A DNA stretch of 24,525 nucleotides from a virus: positions 1 to 24,525 of IMG/VR virus record IMGVR_UViG_3300047508_000082. The stretch is one strand, 5' to 3'. A program made the translations under genes and the position numbers. Positions 1,129 through 22,047 of the stretch are shown in pieces; the first letter of the stretch is position 1, and the number at the start of each line of letters is the position of its first letter. The notes under the pieces are model-generated. The model ran no database searches and had not been told where the DNA came from. It was given only the letters and a program-made list of their open reading frames with translations.

Positions 1129-1925
1129 GGTGCGTGGCCTTGTGCATGTGCGGTCTCCTCAAGGCAACGCTCGTAGCGATCAGTGAGCCAGGCAGCGCGG
1201 TTGTGTATCTGGGCTTGCTGGTCTGGCGTGCGTGCGCTGAAGTCTTCGATGGCGTTGCGTAGTGCTTTGCGCTCTTTCTTCCCTGAGCGAATACGCATTC
1301 GCCAGATTGCTCCGTTGGATTCCAGTTCGCCGGTATGCAGTATTGATTCCAGTAAACCGAGTAGAATTCGCTCATTAGAGCGCGAGTAGGGCGCTTTGGC
1401 TGACTTATTCACAGGCAACGTAATACCCTTACTCGTGTTTACTCGTTCTGTATCTGCTTCTGCTTCTGAGATTGGCTGACCTTGGCTGACTGTGGCTGAC
1501 CTTGGCTGACGCTGGCTGACCTTGGCTGACGCTGGCTGACCTTGGCTGACACGCTCACGGTGGCGGCGTTGTGCTTCCCGGTTTGTATCGCGCCGATCCC
1601 CATCGTGGCGTAAGCCGCGGTAATGCAGGAAATTAAGAATCCTAAAACCACCGGGCACGGCTTCTATCCTGCGGCCTTCATTCTCTGGATTACGCAGCAA
1701 ATCGGAGCTGTCTTTGTCAGGGTCCAATAGCGCCTGAAACGGATCCGTTTGAGCGCACTCGTCTGGGTCGAGGTTAGCCAGTCGAGTCAGGCCGTTACGA
1801 GAACCGAAAACATACCCTTCCGAATCTGCGATCGCCAAGAGCGTGATGAACAGAATCCGAATGTGATCCGGTTCGGTCCACAATGAAGAGTGAACGATCG
1901 AGGAATGAAGTTTCGAGTAAGCCAT
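1125..1925 (-). CDS. Phage replication-initiation-like protein
   Basis: This 266-aa protein probably binds the phage origin and recruits host replication proteins. Residues 1-105 match the common phage N-terminal replication-type domain: a Y-[SR]-K-L start, HSSLWTEPDHIRILFITLLA, IADSEGYVFGS, then DPDKDSSDLLRNPENEGRRIE and GGFRILNF..YR. A low-complexity linker (126-153) of VSQ.QP repeats follows, encoded by the 10-bp iterons. Residues 180-266 form a basic helical C-terminal domain. The ATG lies eight bases after a strong hairpin and lacks a clear Shine-Dalgarno, so expression may be controlled there. An origin inside an initiator gene would parallel lambda O. Functional assignment is by family resemblance; no polymerase or helicase gene is present. 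Confidence 0.65.
   Translation of the reverse strand: MAYSKLHSSIVHSSLWTEPDHIRILFITLLAIADSEGYVFGSRNGLTRLANLDPDECAQTDPFQALLDPDKDSSDLLRNPENEGRRIEAVPGGFRILNFLHYRGLRHDGDRRDTNREAQRRHRERVSQGQPASAKVSQRQPRSATVSQGQPISEAEADTERVNTSKGITLPVNKSAKAPYSRSNERILLGLLESILHTGELESNGAIWRMRIRSGKKERKALRNAIEDFSARTPDQQAQIHNRAAWLTDRYERCLEETAHAQGHAP
1471..1550. repeat. Eight 10-bp iterons, candidate replication origin
   Basis: Eight perfectly phased 10-bp units, each NNTGGCTGAC on the plus strand, run without interruption from 1471 to 1550. The eight-base core TGGCTGAC is invariant and only the first two bases vary (at, ct, tg, ct, gc, ct, gc, ct). Ten bases is about one helical turn, so all units face the same side of the helix. 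They lie inside the replication gene, encoding the VSQ.QP linker. Because 10 is not a multiple of three, the DNA period, not the protein repeat, appears to be what is kept. Confidence 0.75.
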
Positions 1926-4670: not shown

Positions 4671-4757
4671 TCCGCAGATTCCCTCGGCCCCGATTTACAC
4701 AGATTTCCAGAGGGGAAATCTTTTCTTTAATCTGCGGAAATCTGCGAAATCTGCGGA
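4671..4757. repeat. Hairpin repeat, copy A (convergent junction)
   Basis: Imperfect inverted repeat with arms TCCGCAGATT...ACACAGATT and AATCTGCGG..CTGCGGA. As in all full copies, the left arm carries CCCTCGGCCCC. It lies between the integrase stop and the end of the convergent 49-aa gene, so it could terminate both transcripts. Its tip is inverted relative to the other copies (TCCAGAGG is on the left instead of the right) and pairs, with G-U wobbles, in the plus-strand sense. Confidence 0.85.
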
Positions 4758-9943: not shown

Positions 9944-10031
9944 TCCGCAGATTCCCTCGGCCCCGATTTACGCAGATTTGAAGAGCTTCTCTTGCTTCTG
10001 GAAATCTGCGGTAATCTGCGAAATCTGCGGA
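9944..10031. repeat. Hairpin repeat, copy B
   Basis: It lies between the tail tube stop and the start of the 182-aa tail gene. Same orientation and arms as the other full copies; the tip GAAGAGCTTCTC..GCTTC is self-complementary but different from other copies. It starts 16 bases after the stop and ends 10 bases before the next ATG. Confidence 0.85.
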
Positions 10032-10827: not shown

Positions 10828-10902
10828 TCCGCAGATTCCCTCGGCCCCGATTTACGCAGATTAGAATTCTGGAAATCTGCGTAAATCTGCGAAATCTGCG
10901 GA
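10828..10902. repeat. Hairpin repeat, copy C
   Basis: Lies between the stop of the 168-aa gene and the tail tube start, same orientation as the other copies. The tip is the perfect palindrome AGAATTCT, as in copy E. It begins 10 bases after the previous stop. Confidence 0.85.
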
Positions 10903-11952: not shown

Positions 11953-12039
11953 TCCGCAGATTCCCTCGGCCCCGATTTACGCAGATTAAGAGAGGTTTTT
12001 CCCCTCTGGAAATCTGCGGTAATCTGCGAAATCTGCGGA
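11953..12039. repeat. Hairpin repeat, copy D
   Basis: Lies between the MuF stop (four bases away) and the gp10-like gene. Same orientation as the others; tip AGAGAGG-TTTTT-CCCCTCT is complementary on its own terms. Confidence 0.85.
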
Positions 12040-12985: not shown

Positions 12986-13060
12986 TCCGCAGATTCCCCT
13001 GGCCCCGATTTTCGCAGATTAGAATTCTGGAAATCTGCGTTAATCTGCGAAATCTGCGGA
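12986..13060. repeat. Hairpin repeat, copy E
   Basis: Lies between the gp36-like stop and the MuF start. Same orientation; palindromic tip AGAATTCT as in copy C, but with scattered base differences in the arms (CCCCTGGCCCC, TTCGCAGATT). Confidence 0.85.
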
Positions 13061-14420: not shown

Positions 14421-15506
14421 TTAAAGAAGGGAGTCTGCTTTCCACCAACCCAGAAGACCAGTTACACTGTCAGGTTGCACCGCGGTCCCGCCGGCTACCG
14501 TGATGCCGTATTTCGTGCCAAGGTATTTCTCCACGTTCGCCCTGTCAGTGCCTGAAAGAGCAGAGTTATACATGATGATTTCGGCAATGTCGCCGTGACA
14601 ATATTGTGGGGTTGACGGTACCCAGCCGATTGAGGTGAAATCACCTGCGCTGGCGTTAGGGATAGCGGCAAATAAGCCCTGGGACGTGCCGTTCGCGTAA
14701 ACTGTATATGTGGGAGTGGTTGTTATTACGCCGGTCCAGATGACAAATAAGCCGGAGGTAACAAACGTATTAGCGTTAAATCCGTCCAGATTTGATCTGT
14801 CACCGATGTATAGATTTGTCTGAACGTTGGCATTAAGGAATGGCCCACATGGATTAACGGACGTGGTCGCTATAAGTGATGTCAGGTTGTCAACGCCAGG
14901 GCTGGGAGTAGCCGTTTGCATTACTGCAAGGATCGTGTATGGCGTCACACTCGAAATCTGCGTCACCAGTTCAAGTTTGCTTGCCGCGGCTGGGTTAAAC
15001 CGCACAACCGGCTTGCCGTTCAGGATGGCTGTCTTGAACGTTGGCCTATTACTGCCTGTCATTGCAGCATGGTGTCCGTTACCACTTGAATCCGTCCAGG
15101 TGCTCACCGGATCGTCATCAACCAATCCAGAAGCTGAAGCGGTGTAAGTCAGGTTTCCTGGATTAGTCAATGTCCCGGAATTGGTGCAGCTAATCGTTTT
15201 CGCCCCTGCAGATGCCGCGGTATAAGTGAACGTCGCAGAGGTTGAGCCGGTATTTAGTATGACTGTCGATGGCGTGAATGTCCCACCGCCACCACCAGCA
15301 CTTGGAGTTATCGTTACAGGTGCTGGAACAGTTGTGCCGCCAGTAAGCGCTACCGTGAAATTACTGGATGGCACTCCCACTATACCAGAGCTCGGCCCGC
15401 TTAACGAATATCCCGTTGCAGGCGTAGTGGTGCGAAGCCCCACCAGCATCCATTGCGATGCCGAAGCCGGGAAAGGCGACCTGCCTAATTTGTTCGGGTT
15501 AATCAT
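14421..15506 (-). CDS. Ig-like plus LamG-like surface protein, domain permuted
   Basis: A 361-aa protein. Residues 34-124 look like an Ig-type fold (GYSLSGPSSGIVG... TFTYTAASAGAKTISCTNSG). Residues 128-336 are LamG/concanavalin-like: DDDPVSTWTDSSGNGHHA, NGKPVVRF, DIAEIIMYN and RANVEKYLGTKYGI are typical. The strand that normally opens this domain, LLGWWKADSLL, instead stands at the very C-terminus (351-361). Such proteins bind glycans or receptors; here it may decorate the capsid or act as a receptor-binding protein. The ATG overlaps the methyltransferase stop (ATGA). No signal peptide is seen. Confidence 0.65.
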   Translation of the reverse strand: MINPNKLGRSPFPASASQWMLVGLRTTTPATGYSLSGPSSGIVGVPSSNFTVALTGGTTVPAPVTITPSAGGGGGTFTPSTVILNTGSTSATFTYTAASAGAKTISCTNSGTLTNPGNLTYTASASGLVDDDPVSTWTDSSGNGHHAAMTGSNRPTFKTAILNGKPVVRFNPAAASKLELVTQISSVTPYTILAVMQTATPSPGVDNLTSLIATTSVNPCGPFLNANVQTNLYIGDRSNLDGFNANTFVTSGLFVIWTGVITTTPTYTVYANGTSQGLFAAIPNASAGDFTSIGWVPSTPQYCHGDIAEIIMYNSALSGTDRANVEKYLGTKYGITVAGGTAVQPDSVTGLLGWWKADSLL

Positions 15507-16018
15507 CGGCGCAATTCCCCCAGTCCTTCGTGAACCTCGTGATACGTGTATTTAAGCCCCTTTTCAGCGGCGAACTGCTCCACCAGTCCCTTGATGTGCA
15601 TGTAACCGGAGTTTTGCATGTCATCGATGAACATGACGCCATCTTCACGAATAAGCGGCCACATCGCGGCCATGTCGCCGCTGCAACCATCAATAGTGTG
15701 ATCGCCATCAACAAAGCCGATGTCGAATTGCCGTTTGATCGTTGGCAAAACGGCGTGCGAATCGCCTGATTTGATTTCGAATATGCCATCGTAATCGCGC
15801 AGGTTATACTCAACGGTTGCGCGCGATGATTTAAGGTCGCCACAGTGTGTGTTTGAAAAGTTGTCGATCAACGTGGCCCATCGGCAATGCCCGCTCCCTA
15901 ACACGGCCAGCGCGCTGTTACCCGTGAACACACCCACTTCGATGTAATCAATCGCCCGGTGCAGTCGCCTGGCGTGTTCGGTCACAGTGTTCGCAATCAA
16001 CTGGTGATAATCATCCAT
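15503..16018 (-). CDS. Class I SAM-dependent methyltransferase
   Basis: A 171-aa protein. YIEVGVFTGNSALAVL (25-40) is motif I for S-adenosylmethionine binding, FDIGFVDGDHTIDGCSGDM (98-116) matches the acidic D.DH loop of the small methyltransferase_24/TylF-type family, and GVMFIDDM (127-134) is the following strand. These enzymes often methylate sugars or small molecules. Its partners, a GT9 glycosyltransferase upstream and an Ig/LamG protein overlapping downstream, suggest modification of a surface glycan or of virion-attached sugar. The substrate is not known. Confidence 0.75.
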   Translation of the reverse strand: MDDYHQLIANTVTEHARRLHRAIDYIEVGVFTGNSALAVLGSGHCRWATLIDNFSNTHCGDLKSSRATVEYNLRDYDGIFEIKSGDSHAVLPTIKRQFDIGFVDGDHTIDGCSGDMAAMWPLIREDGVMFIDDMQNSGYMHIKGLVEQFAAEKGLKYTYHEVHEGLGELRR

Positions 16019-16035
16019 GTTAAATAAGAGGTTTA

Positions 16036-16122
16036 TCCGCAGATTCCCTCGGCCCCGATTTACGCAGATTAGAAGAATTTCCTTCTTTCTGGAAATCTGC
16101 GTAAATCTGCGAAATCTGCGGA
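16036..16122. repeat. Hairpin repeat, copy F
   Basis: Lies between the GT9 stop (13 bases away) and the methyltransferase start. Same orientation; tip AGAAGAATTTCCTTCTTTCT is self-complementary but different from the other tips. Confidence 0.85.
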
Positions 16123-16135
16123 TAACTCTCCGTGC

Positions 16136-16957
16136 TCATGCGGCCTTGCTTCCCTCCATGTTGAGCAGTCCCAGCGCCACCGGCAAAACGTCCTCTGGAA
16201 ACGTCCGATAGAGTTCCCCGCACCCGATGCTGCAGGCGGTCCCCTTCGGGAACGGCGGCAGGCAATGACAACCCGCGCACGGCAATGCCTTTTTACGGAA
16301 TGACGTTACTTCCGGTAAATAACCGTAAATCCGTTCCTGAGTCGGACCGTGGATCGCCAGGGCGCGGGTGCCAATTGTGCCGGCAAGGTGCGCCGGGCCG
16401 CTATCGTTCCCGATAACTAAATCCGCCCATTGAATGGCCGCGGCTATGAAATGCCAGCTTTTCTTAAAAATGCCGTGGAAGCTCAGCAGCTCGTAATCCC
16501 GCTCTTCAGTGACCATCTTGACCGTCAACCCGCGTTTCATCAGCTCGTAGCCCAGCTCGATGAAATAGCTTTTAGGCCATGTCCGCGGCGGCCATACGCA
16601 ATGCGGAAATATCAGCACATTAGCCGATGCCCGCCGGCCCATCTCGCGCTCCATCGGAATCATGTCCAGAATGGGCCGCCGCGGCGCCACGTTGACGCCC
16701 AGCTTGTCCGTAATCCATTCCAGGTAGTTGAGTGGCGACTTATCCTGCACCGCGGTTTCGTAGCCTTCATGCGTCACCACCGCGCCTGTCGGATCGCTGG
16801 TTGAGTTAAACCCAAACAAGCTGAAAAGCTCCTGACGCCAGCCGTTGCAGTAAAAGGTGACATCACCGCCGGCTTCACGTATGCCTTGCCCTATCCAAGC
16901 GTAGCAAACGATGTCACCCACACCTTTGAACCAGCCAGTTTCAGCGTCGATTTTCAT
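16136..16957 (-). CDS. Glycosyltransferase family 9 (heptosyltransferase-like)
   Basis: A 273-aa protein. The N-terminal GDIVCYAWIGQGIREAGGDV (14-33) and the C-terminal LVIGNDSGPAHLAGTIGTRALAIHGPT (180-206) are hallmarks of the ADP-heptose:LPS heptosyltransferase family, which adds sugars to lipopolysaccharide core. A late Cys-rich loop (Cys227, 230, 232, 242, 246) may bind a metal. The start at 16957 is used; an upstream ATG in the same frame runs through a repeat and the capsid gene. It lies in the head gene cluster directly after the capsid gene, an unusual site for an LPS enzyme, and is followed by a methyltransferase. Serotype conversion and virion glycosylation are both possible. Confidence 0.8.
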   Translation of the reverse strand: MKIDAETGWFKGVGDIVCYAWIGQGIREAGGDVTFYCNGWRQELFSLFGFNSTSDPTGAVVTHEGYETAVQDKSPLNYLEWITDKLGVNVAPRRPILDMIPMEREMGRRASANVLIFPHCVWPPRTWPKSYFIELGYELMKRGLTVKMVTEERDYELLSFHGIFKKSWHFIAAAIQWADLVIGNDSGPAHLAGTIGTRALAIHGPTQERIYGYLPEVTSFRKKALPCAGCHCLPPFPKGTACSIGCGELYRTFPEDVLPVALGLLNMEGSKAA

Positions 16958-16963
16958 GGGAAT

Positions 16964-17045
16964 CTCACACGAAGGCCACGAAGGAACACAAAGGCCCACG
17001 GAGGTCTTAGTGAACCTTTGTGAACCATTGTGACCGTTGTGTGAG
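16964..17045. repeat. Second hairpin family, capsid/GT9 junction
   Basis: Imperfect inverted repeat with arms of about 40 bp made of iterated CACAAAGG / CACGAAGG units; ends CTCACAC (16964-16970) and GTGTGAG (17039-17045) are exactly complementary. On the minus strand it separates the capsid stop (17053) from the GT9 ATG (16957). It has a different sequence from the 7-copy family but the same architecture and junction position. Confidence 0.65.
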
Positions 17046-17052
17046 GTTTCTC

Positions 17053-18585
17053 CTACGCTCTGCTGGAACCGGAACCGGCTGCGGCTTTCAGCAATTGACC
17101 GGCGTTGGTTTGGCCGGCGGCCGTGCCATACATCAGCGAAACCCGCGACGTTGCGGCCGCGAGCTGGTGATTGACGTATTGCGTGAGCATCACCGAAATC
17201 CCGATGTCGGGTTCGGTCATCACCTGAACGCTGCCGTAATTCGCGCCAGGATTGGCGCTGGTGTAATCGTTCGGCAGGCGCGTGGCGATGATCAGCGCGG
17301 ATTTGCTGCAACCAAACCCCGTGACGTTTCCGTTATTCGTCGGCAGGTTCGGCGCGTTGACCACCTGGAACGTGTCAACCGGGATCACCAGTGACGCGCC
17401 GTTCTGCGGCGCCGTGATCAGCTCCGGCTTCTGGTAAGCCGCGAACGTGATTAAGGCCGTGTCCGCCACGAGCTTCGAAAACACTGTGGGATAAAGCAGC
17501 AGCGTCCTCTGGCCCAGCGCCAGCGGAACGCCGCGCAACGTGAGTTGCGTGCCGATGTCGATCACGCTTGTCCGCGCGAAGGATGAAGTCGCAGTGACGC
17601 TGTTGTTCGTGAAATTGGCGTCGGTGATGTTGGCATACAGATCGTCAACCATTTGCTTGGACAGGGCGTAAGCCGCTGCCGGCGCAAACTCATCGAACAA
17701 CCTGCGCACCGTGGAGGCCAGGATTTGCTCGTTAAACGTAAGATTGACGCCCTTGTGCTTATTGATCGTGACCGGCACATCAACGTTGGCTGCCGTCGAA
17801 TCGGCCCAGCCCGTCGTGGTGTTGTAATCGGTCACATTCGGGATCGTGACTGTGCGGGTGATGACCGTCTGATTGAATTGCGCGGCCGTATCGCTGAAGT
17901 CCGTGGTGAACATCGTGAGCGAGGGAAACGTGAATTTGAGCAGCTCAAGCGTGCGCTGCGTGACCAGCGACCCGGAAAGAGTTTTCAGGTTCGCGTCAGT
18001 TACATCCGCGCCCATGATTGCAGTTTCGAATTCCGAAACCGGGAACGACAACATCCGCTCTTTGTTGGAGCCTTTGAATTCCCGCGCGTAGATGGCCGCA
18101 AACTCACGGCTCAACGTCCTGCGCTGCTCCGGTTGCGAAGTGCGGCAGGAAAGCGAGCTGACCCGCGCCAGTTCCCCAAAGATGCGCGAAGGATCGTCAT
18201 CGCTGATCGTGACCCGGCCACCGGCGATGATAGCCGTGCCGAGTGCCGGCATATTGCCCGGAATCGAATCCAGAATTTCCTTATCCCTTGGATCGGCCGC
18301 GATGCGGGTTTCCCACATCTTTTGCTTCGGCAAATCGCGGGCCGCGATCGCGCCGCGCTTCACCGCCTCGCGCACCGCCTGGCGCGCATCATCAAGCTGG
18401 CGTTTGCGCACCTTGCCCTGCAACTCCTCATTGCGAGCTTTGATTTCGCTCAGCTCCATTTCCATTTCGCCGGCCCTGATTTCGGAGTGCAACGCCGCAC
18501 GTTTGGTTGCGGTCGATTCATCCTGTTCATCTCTTTCAAGCTCCTGATCTTTCGCCCGGAGCGCGGCGAGTTCTTCTGTCGTCAT
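17053..18585 (-). CDS. Nested in-frame capsid product (internal start), 510 aa
   Basis: Within the fusion ORF an ATG at 18585 (MTTEELAAL) is preceded by AGAGGA seven bases upstream (18593-18598), a better ribosome site than that of the full ORF. It begins exactly where the coiled delta-like region of HK97-type capsid proteins would start. Translation here would give a capsid precursor without protease, as nested starts do for lambda C/Nu3. It would allow far more capsid than protease from one gene. Supported by sequence only. Confidence 0.6.
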   Translation of the reverse strand: MTTEELAALRAKDQELERDEQDESTATKRAALHSEIRAGEMEMELSEIKARNEELQGKVRKRQLDDARQAVREAVKRGAIAARDLPKQKMWETRIAADPRDKEILDSIPGNMPALGTAIIAGGRVTISDDDPSRIFGELARVSSLSCRTSQPEQRRTLSREFAAIYAREFKGSNKERMLSFPVSEFETAIMGADVTDANLKTLSGSLVTQRTLELLKFTFPSLTMFTTDFSDTAAQFNQTVITRTVTIPNVTDYNTTTGWADSTAANVDVPVTINKHKGVNLTFNEQILASTVRRLFDEFAPAAAYALSKQMVDDLYANITDANFTNNSVTATSSFARTSVIDIGTQLTLRGVPLALGQRTLLLYPTVFSKLVADTALITFAAYQKPELITAPQNGASLVIPVDTFQVVNAPNLPTNNGNVTGFGCSKSALIIATRLPNDYTSANPGANYGSVQVMTEPDIGISVMLTQYVNHQLAAATSRVSLMYGTAAGQTNAGQLLKAAAGSGSSRA

Positions 18586-19140
18586 TTTTGTTTCCTCTTT
18601 GTTGGTTTCCTGAAGCCTCGCCGCCGCAGGATTGTTTGTTGATGTCGCCGACTCTCCGGCGTTTTTTGCCCACAAGGGCAAATTGAATGCGGGATTATTA
18701 ACCAGCCCGCCCATGTTCGGGGCCGCGTGTTCCATGCAAATCACCTTTGCCGGATCGCTGCGCTTGTTATCCACATGGAACACCGGCGAGAAGGCCCGGT
18801 AATCTTTGCCTTCTACAGCTTTGCGACCCCGCGCAGTCCATTCGCCCTTGGCAATTACGCCTTCACCGTTGCGCCAGGCGAAGCCTTCCGGCCAAAAACT
18901 CGCCGCGCCATCCTCGTGATCAAAATCGAAATAAGGCCGCTTCCCTTTGCCGGCCATGATCCGGCGCTGTTGCTCGATTGCCTCCGCGGTTGACGCATCA
19001 ACCTTAACTTTGATGGGCCGCCCGATGCCACCGGCGACAGGCGTGATCGAGTGAAGTCCGATCGGCAAAAACAAAACTTCATTGCGCGAGGTAGCCGAAA
19101 TCTCTACCGCGGCGCGGCATTCAATAGGTTCGTCGTTCAT
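17053..19140 (-). CDS. Fused Mu gpI-like protease and major capsid protein
   Basis: A 695-aa fusion. Residues 10-120 match the Mu I protease/scaffold: ISATSRNEVLFLPIGLHSIT, YFDFDHEDGAASFWPEGFAWRNG... WTARGRKAVEGKDYRAFSPVFH. From about residue 186 a helical delta-like stretch (MTTEELAALRAKDQEL... KRQLDDARQA) precedes an HK97-fold capsid domain (about 350-695) with SFPVSEFETAIMGADVTDANLKTLSGS and VNAPNLPTNNG. Protease and capsid are usually separate genes; here no stop separates them and the nested start at residue 186 may produce capsid alone. Processing by the protease to free the capsid is inferred. The ATG overlaps the 51-aa gene stop. Confidence 0.8.
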   Translation of the reverse strand: MNDEPIECRAAVEISATSRNEVLFLPIGLHSITPVAGGIGRPIKVKVDASTAEAIEQQRRIMAGKGKRPYFDFDHEDGAASFWPEGFAWRNGEGVIAKGEWTARGRKAVEGKDYRAFSPVFHVDNKRSDPAKVICMEHAAPNMGGLVNNPAFNLPLWAKNAGESATSTNNPAAARLQETNKEETKMTTEELAALRAKDQELERDEQDESTATKRAALHSEIRAGEMEMELSEIKARNEELQGKVRKRQLDDARQAVREAVKRGAIAARDLPKQKMWETRIAADPRDKEILDSIPGNMPALGTAIIAGGRVTISDDDPSRIFGELARVSSLSCRTSQPEQRRTLSREFAAIYAREFKGSNKERMLSFPVSEFETAIMGADVTDANLKTLSGSLVTQRTLELLKFTFPSLTMFTTDFSDTAAQFNQTVITRTVTIPNVTDYNTTTGWADSTAANVDVPVTINKHKGVNLTFNEQILASTVRRLFDEFAPAAAYALSKQMVDDLYANITDANFTNNSVTATSSFARTSVIDIGTQLTLRGVPLALGQRTLLLYPTVFSKLVADTALITFAAYQKPELITAPQNGASLVIPVDTFQVVNAPNLPTNNGNVTGFGCSKSALIIATRLPNDYTSANPGANYGSVQVMTEPDIGISVMLTQYVNHQLAAATSRVSLMYGTAAGQTNAGQLLKAAAGSGSSRA

Positions 19141-19292
19141 TTTGGTTTGATGTTGAAAAATGCCACTGATCCATCGTCATAAATCACTTTGGCAATCGTG
19201 GCGGTTTCCTTGTCGCTAAGTTTCAACTTGTCATCGAAATAGGAGACTTCCCCTTTGCGGCCGCCAAGCGTGATTGGTTGGGCAACGTTCAT
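19137..19292 (-). CDS. 51-aa head-operon protein
   Basis: A small ORF (MNVAQPITLGGRKGEVSYFDD... FFNIKPK) with ATGA overlaps on both sides: its ATG lies in the portal stop and its TGA in the protease-capsid start. The composition is that of a small beta-rich protein with a charged middle. No family is recognised. Possible roles are decoration of the head or a translational coupler that links portal and capsid synthesis. Confidence 0.65.
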   Translation of the reverse strand: MNVAQPITLGGRKGEVSYFDDKLKLSDKETATIAKVIYDDGSVAFFNIKPK

Positions 19293-21796
19293 TTCTCCCA
19301 TACGGCAAGCTCCTGGTATGGATGTTTGATCCGTTTGTATTGCACGCGAATATCACGCGCGAATTGCTCCCAATCGCGCGAAGGTCTGCTAAGATGCGCC
19401 GCGCCGGTGTGCTGCCACGAATTGACTTCGGCCACGGTTTCATCCACTGCGCGCGAGAGGCCCATGTTTTGATCAACTGCGCCTTTTGCCCAATAGGCTT
19501 TTGAATAATCGCTGATGCCATCATCCTTGATCATCTGCTGCGTCTTATCGGGGCCGGATGCTGACATATACGAATCGCCCCAGGTCCGTGCGAATGCAGT
19601 CGATGCCGGAAACTTTTTGGCAAATTCGGCTTTGGATTCCGGCCGCAGAAATCCGCCGGCTGTAAAATGTTTATGAAACTCGGTATCGTTCTTAATCAGT
19701 GTTGAAATCCGGGCATGTTCCAATTCCTGCGCCTGCTTCACCACATCGAATTGGGCGTGCGATACTTCGTGCGCCATCATCGAATCAACCGAAGCCGGAT
19801 TGTCCATTGTCATTGAATCAATCGTGATCCGCCCATTACTCGGAGAGTAAAAGCCACCGCGAACGAATTGCCTGTCTCCGACATTAAATTTTACAGGTTC
19901 GCCGGTTTCCAGGTAATCTATTTTGTCTGTTGGAAATCCCATTCTCTCAGCCATCGCGTTGCCACGCTTTCTGATTTCGTTTTTTTTTTGCTGATCCGAT
20001 TCCGGCGCGCCGCCCATTCCTTCGGTGTATTGGTTGCCGTGGAACGGATGCCCCTGAAAATCGCCGGCGGAAATCGGCAATTTGACGGCCCAGCCATTCG
20101 GCTTGCCGCCGGTCATTGCTTCTTCAACCCATGTGCCAGGGTGTTTCGAACTGAAATCATCCGCCGCGTTTTTCGTTATGAACGGCCGCGCGTGCCAGCT
20201 TTTACCAACCCGCGGCGCCGGCGGCGGTGGTGCAGCCGCCGCTTCCACATCATCAGCCAGGCGGTTCAGTTCGATGGCGAAAATCTCTTCATCTTCAATC
20301 GCTGAAATCCTTTCAAGCTTGGCCTGCATCTCCTTCGGGTTAGGCGTGCCGTTGCGCGAAGGCTCGCCCAGCGGCCTTGTTCCCTTTGGGCCTGCGCTGA
20401 TGTCCGAAGGCGCCATCGGTTTCGGTGGCGGCGTTGTTACCGGCTCCTCATTGGTGGCCGCGGGTATGCCATACTTGTGCCGAAGATGGCTGAGCGGAAT
20501 ATCCAGCCCCATGCCGGTCAAAATCTGGTCGCGCTGCGCATCCTGATAACCGCCTTCGGTTTCTTTTAAGAACCTGCACCGCGGCGCTTCCATCGCGTCG
20601 CCGTAATTGAGTTGCAGGATGTAGGGAATCAGTTGCCGGTTGAAAATGTTCGAGATGAAGAAACTCGCGGCATCGAGCCTGTCCGATTTGAGTTGCGCTT
20701 CAACCGTCCCAAAGCTTTGCCCGCCGCGCCCGCTTGCCAGCGTGTTGCCGGTCATCGTTTGGCCCAGGATGAGCAACCGGACATATGCGTCGGCGCGGTC
20801 GAGCAAATCTCCCTGCGGCGTCCGGTCGCTGCCGTGCGCCGCTTCCTTCAACTCCAGCGATGTGCCTTCGGGGAACGCCGCCCAACCGGCGCTCCCCATG
20901 TTCTGCAACATATTACAAACGGCCGAAACCGTTTCGTCTGGCGCAGAAGCAGCATAGTTCGCCCACCGGAATGGAAGGCCAAAGATTTGCGCGAGGTTAA
21001 GCAACCAATCGCTTGAAAAGTTGGCGGCGCACCACCACCAGGCGAGTGGACGTAGCAATGCACCGCCAATTGGACTACCGGATTGCGCCTTGTGAATCGC
21101 GGTAAGGAATTTGTAAGGCGGAAACGGCCGCACCTCGGCCTTGCGATAACCCGTTGTCGTTTCCGCATAATTGCTGTCATCGGTAAGACCTAAAACGCCG
21201 TCATCGCCGAAAGCGTAATTGCACGGGTGCGCAAACTTCGTTGCGCGCGGCGCCGTGATAAGCCCCTGGTTGACCGTGTCAGTCGTATGCCACATCACCT
21301 CGCACACGCTGATCCCGCGGAACCAGGCATCCATCAAATCCTCGATCGTGCCATCCAGCCCGTTCTCATCCGCTTCCGCCCGCGGCTGCATATTGCGCAG
21401 CGCTTCAGTCACAAGCTTTTCGCGTTCAATCGCGTTCGGCGTCGGCTCCTCATCCTCCTCCGCGTAAGGATCAAACTGCAGCTCGCGCCGGCTAATCCCG
21501 TAAAGCAACTCCTCCTTACACGCCGCCAGCGCCGGCCACGTATCGAGCATCAGCCGGAACAACTCCCATTGCTGCACCATGACGCCCGCCAGCGCACCGC
21601 GCAGAATGGATTCCACCATCACCGGCGTGTAAGACGCCACGTAAGGCATCATCCAACTCCGGTTCACTTGCGGCCGCAGGACATTGCGCATCACCGATGT
21701 CGGCACGCTCATCGTAGAAGCCGCGTCAATCGCGTGCTTCCCATTCTTGCGCACCTTCAGCGTCCGCTTGCGTGCTGGTTTTATGCGGGCTTTCAC
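19289..21796 (-). CDS. Mu gp29-like portal with C-terminal metallopeptidase domain
   Basis: An 835-aa fusion. Residues about 30-480 are the DUF935/gp29 portal: PVMVESILRGALAGVM.QWELFRLMLDTWP, the Gly-rich GQTMTGNTLASGRGGQSFGTVE, and DAASFFISNIFNRQLIPYIL are typical. A Pro/Gly linker (about 490-545) precedes HPFHGNQY (583-590), a motif seen at domain boundaries of phage-borne effector proteins. Residues 600-835 hold HEVSH (676-680), an HExxH zinc site, with DETVAE (785-790) as a likely third-ligand helix of a gluzincin. Such an effector could act in head maturation or be injected with the DNA. The usual portal ends soon after the DUF935 region, so the tail is an addition. Confidence 0.85.
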   Translation of the reverse strand: MKARIKPARKRTLKVRKNGKHAIDAASTMSVPTSVMRNVLRPQVNRSWMMPYVASYTPVMVESILRGALAGVMVQQWELFRLMLDTWPALAACKEELLYGISRRELQFDPYAEEDEEPTPNAIEREKLVTEALRNMQPRAEADENGLDGTIEDLMDAWFRGISVCEVMWHTTDTVNQGLITAPRATKFAHPCNYAFGDDGVLGLTDDSNYAETTTGYRKAEVRPFPPYKFLTAIHKAQSGSPIGGALLRPLAWWWCAANFSSDWLLNLAQIFGLPFRWANYAASAPDETVSAVCNMLQNMGSAGWAAFPEGTSLELKEAAHGSDRTPQGDLLDRADAYVRLLILGQTMTGNTLASGRGGQSFGTVEAQLKSDRLDAASFFISNIFNRQLIPYILQLNYGDAMEAPRCRFLKETEGGYQDAQRDQILTGMGLDIPLSHLRHKYGIPAATNEEPVTTPPPKPMAPSDISAGPKGTRPLGEPSRNGTPNPKEMQAKLERISAIEDEEIFAIELNRLADDVEAAAAPPPPAPRVGKSWHARPFITKNAADDFSSKHPGTWVEEAMTGGKPNGWAVKLPISAGDFQGHPFHGNQYTEGMGGAPESDQQKKNEIRKRGNAMAERMGFPTDKIDYLETGEPVKFNVGDRQFVRGGFYSPSNGRITIDSMTMDNPASVDSMMAHEVSHAQFDVVKQAQELEHARISTLIKNDTEFHKHFTAGGFLRPESKAEFAKKFPASTAFARTWGDSYMSASGPDKTQQMIKDDGISDYSKAYWAKGAVDQNMGLSRAVDETVAEVNSWQHTGAAHLSRPSRDWEQFARDIRVQYKRIKHPYQELAVWEK

Positions 21797-22047
21797 TCTT
21801 TCTCCTTCTGGAAATCTGCGGAAATCTGCGAAATCTGCGGATCATCATTTTCCCGGCCGAAATTGTTGATGCGCCCCGCCAGAAAATAGAGATGCAGATA
21901 CATCGCATGTTCCTGCATCTGCAGGAGCAGCTTTTCATCAGTGTCCAAAGCCTTAAAATCTTCGCTGCGATTAAATTCGGCTAATGCGCCCAACCGCTTT
22001 GCCAGCGCCGTCTGCTCGTTTACCGCGTCCTCTTCAAACTCTTTCAC
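21793..22047 (-). CDS. 84-aa helical head-operon protein with repeat-encoded C-terminus
   Basis: The ATG overlaps the TerL stop and the stop overlaps the portal start (ATGA at each side). Residues 1-64 are charged and helical. The last 17 residues (DDPQISQISADFQKEKE) are encoded by half of the hairpin repeat (copy G), so the repeat has supplied part of the protein. A TerL/portal accessory role is likely from position, but the family is unknown. Confidence 0.6.
   Translation of the reverse strand: MKEFEEDAVNEQTALAKRLGALAEFNRSEDFKALDTDEKLLLQMQEHAMYLHLYFLAGRINNFGRENDDPQISQISADFQKEKE
21803..21842. repeat. Hairpin repeat, half copy G
   Basis: Only the right arm (CTTCTGGAAATCTGCGG..CTGCGGA) is present; the CCCTCGGCCCC arm is missing. 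It lies inside the end of the 84-aa gene, in frame, so this copy has no separate intergenic position. Confidence 0.8.

Follow-up and report, generated by a model that had tools for sequence, protein, structure and literature searches.

Intragenic origins are already known, in phage lambda and in oriL of phage SPP1. SPP1 oriL is located in gene 38, which encodes the replisome organizer gp38, and comprises direct repeats and an adjoining unwinding element, followed by the gp39 loader and the gp40 DnaB-type helicase (PMC6316719). The lambda record contains four 18-bp iterons over O residues 117-145 and then ACAAAAGACACTATTACAAAAGAAAAAAGAAAAGA; these palindromic iterons, also cited in an earlier note on the present DNA, bind O dimers (PMC5043065). 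In iteron plasmids (P1, RK2, F), monomeric initiators bind helically phased direct repeats (PMC5043065). The basal unwinding system of Bacillus subtilis consists of DnaA-trios (TAG-TAG-AAG) and a DnaD recognition element beside the initiator boxes (PMC10201434).

A stretch of 24,525 nucleotides from a virus (IMG/VR record IMGVR_UViG_3300047508_000082, the window) was analyzed here. On its minus strand, eight exact 10-bp direct repeats and an adjoining tract of CAGA hexamers were found inside one gene, and this two-part layout recurred in dozens of related phages with differing repeat sequences. From the sequence, we consider it likely (probability about 0.8) that the region is a phage replication origin inside the gene of its own initiator, whose N-terminal domain would bind the 10-bp iterons, and that the tract would serve as the site of opening and helicase loading. 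The one-turn iterons, the turnover of their cores between lineages and the CAGA tract set it apart from the known cases; a literature search of incomplete coverage returned no description of this layout. The features of the locus were as follows, all on the minus strand.

1125 to 1925: putative replication initiator gene, 266 aa (open reading frame; C-terminal PHROG modules of homologues; DnaB near the gene of relative L007)
1539 to 1925: N-terminal predicted winged-helix DNA-binding domain with a long helix, residues 1-129 (AlphaFold2; 70-73% identity in the closest relatives)
1471 to 1550: eight 10-bp units forming an array, each GTCAGCCANN on the gene strand, with the cores spanning 1473-1550 (10-bp period class-wide in homologues)
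1446 to 1469: tract of CAGA hexamers, TCAGAAGCAGAAGCAGATACAGAA, next to the array; a candidate element for unwinding or helicase loading
1397 to 1404: ninth exact core, outside the 10-bp register of the array at a distance of 76 bp; possibly a chance match
1392 to 1490: predicted disordered linker, residues 146-178 (pLDDT <50), which extends over the tract and into the array at its gene-3' end
1143 to 1385: helical domain at the C-terminus, residues 181-261, modelled as five helices (block means 86-96); presumed module for contact with helicase or loader

As in lambda ori, the repeats lay in the initiator gene between the parts for DNA binding and for the C-terminal module, a likeness of position only (about residues 126-151 here, O residues 117-145 in lambda). 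The lambda coding strand after the iterons is A-rich, purine-biased and weak, and a region predicted to be weak and strand-asymmetric adjoined the array here too. In lambda the initiator is followed by a helicase-recruiting partner; DnaB, Prim-Pol or IstB-like genes were seen after the initiator in relatives, while the window record ended earlier. Unlike the four 18-bp units with inverted symmetry and the A-rich weak element of lambda, eight 10-bp direct repeats and a regular CAGA hexamer were present. Pfam and PHROG searches gave no homology of the window protein to lambda O (Phage_rep_O), and some relatives were O-like by PHROG in the C-terminal module only. SPP1 oriL, compared by description only and with no sequence match seen, shares direct repeats inside the initiator gene and an adjoining unwinding element, for which there is a candidate here. 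Iteron plasmids share the helical phasing of direct repeats (exactly 10 bp here, 9-11 bp in homologues), but the window protein had no Rep-family (Rep_3/RepA-type) Pfam match, the unit was only 10 bp and the candidate origin lay inside coding sequence.

The putative initiator and its neighbourhood

The array was located inside the gene, as the earlier note had placed it, with its cores at 1473-1550 within the 1125-1925 reading frame. AlphaFold2 modelled residues 11-100 with block means of 90-98. Searches of the window protein against Pfam and PHROG returned no match, nor did the C-terminal domain (residues 181-261) match any PHROG family, and a PDB fold search with the model gave no match at E <1, only weak winged-helix matches. 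The C-terminal modules of relatives matched the replication initiation, O-like, primosomal and DnaD-like families of PHROG. In L007, a 72% relative, a DnaB gene was found 191 bp downstream of the initiator gene; the downstream gene was DnaB in L085, L089, L094, L112 and L113 as well, Prim-Pol in L111 and an IstB/DnaC-like, loader-like ATPase in L109. The phage replication-type N-terminus claimed from the sequence was thus not borne out by any Pfam or PHROG match of the window protein itself, and gained indirect support from the PHROG matches of relatives and the DnaB neighbour. No helicase gene adjoined the initiator gene within the window record, which stops 1.1 kb past it, so the phage's own helicase may be missing from the record.

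The other genes of the window included Mu-like portal, protease and F-type genes, together with those for a terminase and an integrase of the tyrosine type. The Mu-like protease (17053-19140) ran on into a long C-terminal part, possibly as a protease-capsid fusion, and the portal reading frame (19289-21796) had a long tail bearing a zinc-peptidase-like motif, MMAHEVSHAQF. A methyltransferase (Methyltransf_24) and a glycosyltransferase family 9 gene (15503-17311) lay amid structural genes.

Eight exact cores at one-turn spacing

The core TGGCTGAC occurred eight times without mismatch at a spacing of exactly 10 bp, starting at 1473, 1483, 1493, 1503, 1513, 1523, 1533 and 1543. In tandem repeat analysis (TRF), the score of the array was 116 for a period of 10 and 142 for a period of 20. 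The longest run of an exact 8-mer at 10-bp spacing was 8, compared with a maximum of 2 when the window was shuffled 200 times under a first-order Markov model, and the array was the top 10-bp periodic chain of the whole record (8.0 vs 3.3 elsewhere). Both the eight units and their invariant eight-base core were therefore recovered as the earlier note had described them. Successive cores fell in codon phases 0,1,2,0,1,2,0,1 (gene-strand unit GTCAGCCANN), so that the array was not codon-phased, again as claimed, and the encoded protein repeated only every 30 bp. The ninth core at 1397, the CAGA tract and the wide spread of the class among phages went beyond that note; the ninth core lay in the same gene and on the same strand as the array.

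Relatives of about 70% identity in the DNA-binding domain carried T[CA]AGCC cores at 10-bp steps in the same place while encoding other residues (window, VSQGQPASAKVSQRQP; L009, SRNKPRSANVKRVKP; L010, VSQSKPKSATVIHAK). The note had proposed related phages as a check on its suggestion that selection acted on DNA: in these relatives the spaced cores were kept and the encoded residues changed, and not the reverse.

The class in uncultured phages

Homologues were collected by scans of viral contigs and a further scan from the first relatives, and were reduced to 80 non-redundant sequences, mostly from uncultured phages; the alignment with which the scans were widened included one row (A2) that was a hand-written family consensus, which chose search patterns only, and every match was confirmed on real sequence. 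The N-terminal domains of the first-scan relatives were from 73% down to 34% identical to that of the window. The window phage genome was of soil type, and the nearest cellular match was in an Acidobacteria gp4 genome (L032), with a match in 6 of 199 genomes drawn around it. When DNA-binding domains were searched by tblastn against cultured phages and plasmids, no match was returned, though the terminase was found by the same search. Full-length queries matched named phages mostly via the C-terminal module, and the genes of these phages (L117, L118, L120, L123, L124, L127) had other, unrelated DNA-binding domains, some together with other central repeats.

Pattern matching located a CAGA tract in 63 of the 80 homologues. 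Over the 130 nt before the tract, the lag-10 autocorrelation of these 63 was 0.361, compared with 0.306 in shuffles that kept the protein and the codon usage of the gene (z = 14), and weaker echoes appeared at lags 20 (z = 7), 30 and 40. Selection on DNA was thereby supported as a property of the class. A per-gene test for chains of cores 9-11 bp apart (40 shuffles, lowest possible p 0.024, p values uncorrected for the number of genes) reached significance for 50 of the 64 genes with a tract; since the homologues are also phylogenetically non-independent, these figures describe a strong class pattern and not exact probabilities. The 14 tract genes without a significant chain reflect either decayed cores or an overly strict test. 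Five short paralogues that end soon after the DNA-binding domain (L040, L044, L045, L046, L057) had neither array nor tract.

The cores differed by lineage (GTCAGCC, GTAACGC, GTCAACA, GTGAACA, GTGGACA, GTCCACA, CTCGACC, TCCGACA and GTAGAAC); on the coding strand most lineages had a GTNNNC-like form, and some alternated between 10 and 11 bp. From the start of the last core to the tract, the distance was 7-12 bp in 27 and 18-23 bp in 17 of 50 genes, about one or two turns, which indicated that the tract shares the helical phasing. The array ranked first among the 10-bp chains of its record in 8 of 11 cases, and in 10 of 11 records the GC-skew extremes fell within about 6 kb of the gene, a measure confounded by gene orientation. 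A residue-level code for the iterons was tried and set aside, as domain identity and core motif were only modestly correlated (Mantel r = 0.39).

With the tract alone as query, a GCAGAAGCAGAAGCAGAAGCAGA scan of viral contigs gave at least 80 loci, with 70 distinct genes among the matches listed. The signature of the DNA-binding domain, a crude regular expression sought upstream, was present in 31 of these 70 genes. Among the main-orientation genes of the matches listed, a significant 10-bp chain was detected in 23 of 29 with the signature and 5 of 28 others (p = 4e-6), and four of those 5 (L148, L169, L184, L191) resembled initiators as well, with another domain.

Tandem initiator genes of the family were observed in the acidobacterial genome (L032:4001-5250). 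The first was shortened, with a decayed array and without a tract; the second combined units resembling iterons with a flipped (CTT)n tract and carried CTTCTTCTTCTACTTCTTC in the flipped sense, a form close to the B. subtilis element.

A CAGA tract conserved as DNA

The window tract TCAGAAGCAGAAGCAGATACAGAA was a run of NCAGAN hexamers directly on the gene-3' side of the array, with a period of 6 detected by TRF at 1453-1468. It was among the weakest 5-6% of duplex stretches of the record (60-bp windows). Over the homologues, the mean stability profile reached its minimum at the tract, where the purine fraction was 0.75.

Codon choice was examined with the tract defined by protein only, as alternating small and acidic residues. 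Within the tract, Ala was encoded by GCA in 188 cases and by GCC in 3 (98% GCA), compared with GCA in 361 of 1828 (20%) elsewhere in the same genes (Fisher p about 1e-113); ACA accounted for 42 of 49 Thr codons, TCA for 23 of 28 Ser codons and GTA for 19 of 20 Val codons. The third position was A in 77% of majority-frame tract codons vs 16% in the domain-coding part. Synonymous third bases were thus frozen while first bases and residues varied, opposite to what selection on the protein would give. In L023 and L026 the hexamer stood in another reading frame, encoding KQKQKQ, and it also occurred on the opposite strand, in L010 of the homology set and as ASASAS in L159 and L197 of the pattern scan. 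By these switches of frame and strand, the peptide passed from acidic to basic to neutral with the DNA unchanged. Taken with the 10-bp period in excess of synonymous shuffles and the GCA bias, this switching showed that array and tract are both selected as DNA.

The tract was phased by trinucleotides, CAG then AAG, with 240 CAG and 105 AAG in register. Like DnaA-trios, these CAG-AAG repeats are trinucleotide-phased and strand-asymmetric beside boxes, and their complement, TTCTGC, has TnnT steps. Unlike DnaA-trios, many hexamers kept A only every 6 bases. Against the polarity of DnaA-trios relative to their boxes, the tract was reversed in most genes, the 5' end of the purine strand adjoining the iterons, and only flipped tracts agreed. 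Membership among DnaA-trios was rejected, both strands being used and the majority polarity being opposite, and the likeness to DnaA-trios and the DnaD element is accordingly a lead. DnaG primase CTG sites were disfavoured as a reading of the tract, because GTAGAT and GGAGAA tracts lack CTG.

Possible mechanism and alternatives

In an origin of this kind, the winged-helix domain would bind the 10-bp units. As the spacing equals one helical turn, each unit would probably hold one protomer, all of them on the same side of the helix. The resulting nucleoprotein filament may strain the adjoining weak, purine-asymmetric CAGA tract, which would then open, and the C-terminal module, on the tether of the disordered linker, would bring in the replicative helicase, directly or via a loader. 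More tentatively, and with the odds against it, the tract could be recognized strand-specifically, in single-stranded form, by the initiator or the helicase loader, as the phage equivalent of the DnaA-trios or the DnaD recognition element. Together with one-turn iterons it might then form a portable two-part origin, which a very large set of uncultured phages would carry inside their initiator genes, and the AEAEAE, KQKQKQ and ASASAS peptides might be by-products of the DNA signal.

The repeats could also bind protein and yet serve as an operator, a copy-control site or a centromere-like partition site. Short phased direct repeats in or near the gene of a DNA-binding protein are typical of operators and centromeres. 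Here, the site lay within the coding region rather than at a promoter, with the DNA-binding module on one side and the C-terminal module on the other, and a weak, asymmetric tract came after it; helicase, primase or loader genes adjoined in relatives, and the array was missing from the short paralogues, which keep the DNA-binding domain only. We regard such a role as unlikely. Replication slippage in a sequence coding for a low-complexity linker, with no function of the DNA, would account for both repeats through the tolerance of a predicted disordered linker for simple repeats. It leaves unexplained the A at the third base of 188 of 191 Ala codons while first bases and residues varied, the switching of frame and strand, and the degenerate cores 9-11 bp apart in genes with different residues; nor can a 10-bp period come from protein selection alone. 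Slippage is therefore considered very improbable. Slightly less probable still is that the iterons alone act as DNA while the tract works on RNA or translation, for instance by a pause at A-ending codons. The run of such codons in the majority frame would fit, but tracts in the KQKQ frame end in G and those on the reverse strand in T, which means that codon identity is not the conserved feature.

The intragenic origin, as the preferred reading, is open to direct test by synonymous recoding. As a sequence rule, phased 9-11-bp GTNNNC-like cores followed about one or two turns on by a CAGA hexamer tract can locate candidate origins in genomes of uncultured phages with a precision of about 150 bp. 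In the homologues, binding domains and their sites form a naturally matched series from which an initiator-iteron code could be read, and selection on DNA would explain the puzzling AEAEAE and similar runs in phage replication proteins.

Other repeats and insertions

Central repeats of other kinds were present when cultured phages were examined for their replication genes. Andrew and Galaxy carried 11/22-bp GGGGTGNACG, phiPSA1 and Olaya had AGA-rich AGAGA runs, Lagaffe a 10-bp AGTAGACCAG repeat and Silvergun ACAGAT. The layout may reach beyond the present protein family. In L007, five 19-bp tandem repeats (ACACTAACTTATTGACATC) were situated just upstream of the initiator gene (587-679) and may be an operator or a second element of the origin. 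In L019 (1148-2533), an insertion of about 95 residues (LRDGYLFFVAANGCVKIGFSVNPW...) lay between the DNA-binding domain and the tract, with the look of a small nuclease and no Pfam match. In the window, AAATCTGCG-type units spaced at 9-10-bp steps formed seven clusters, at 4729-4757, 9997-10031, 10864-10900, 12005-12039, 13022-13058, 16088-16120 and 21807-21841; they lay in or near gaps between late genes, were unrelated to the iteron core and are possibly a dispersed host-type repeat.
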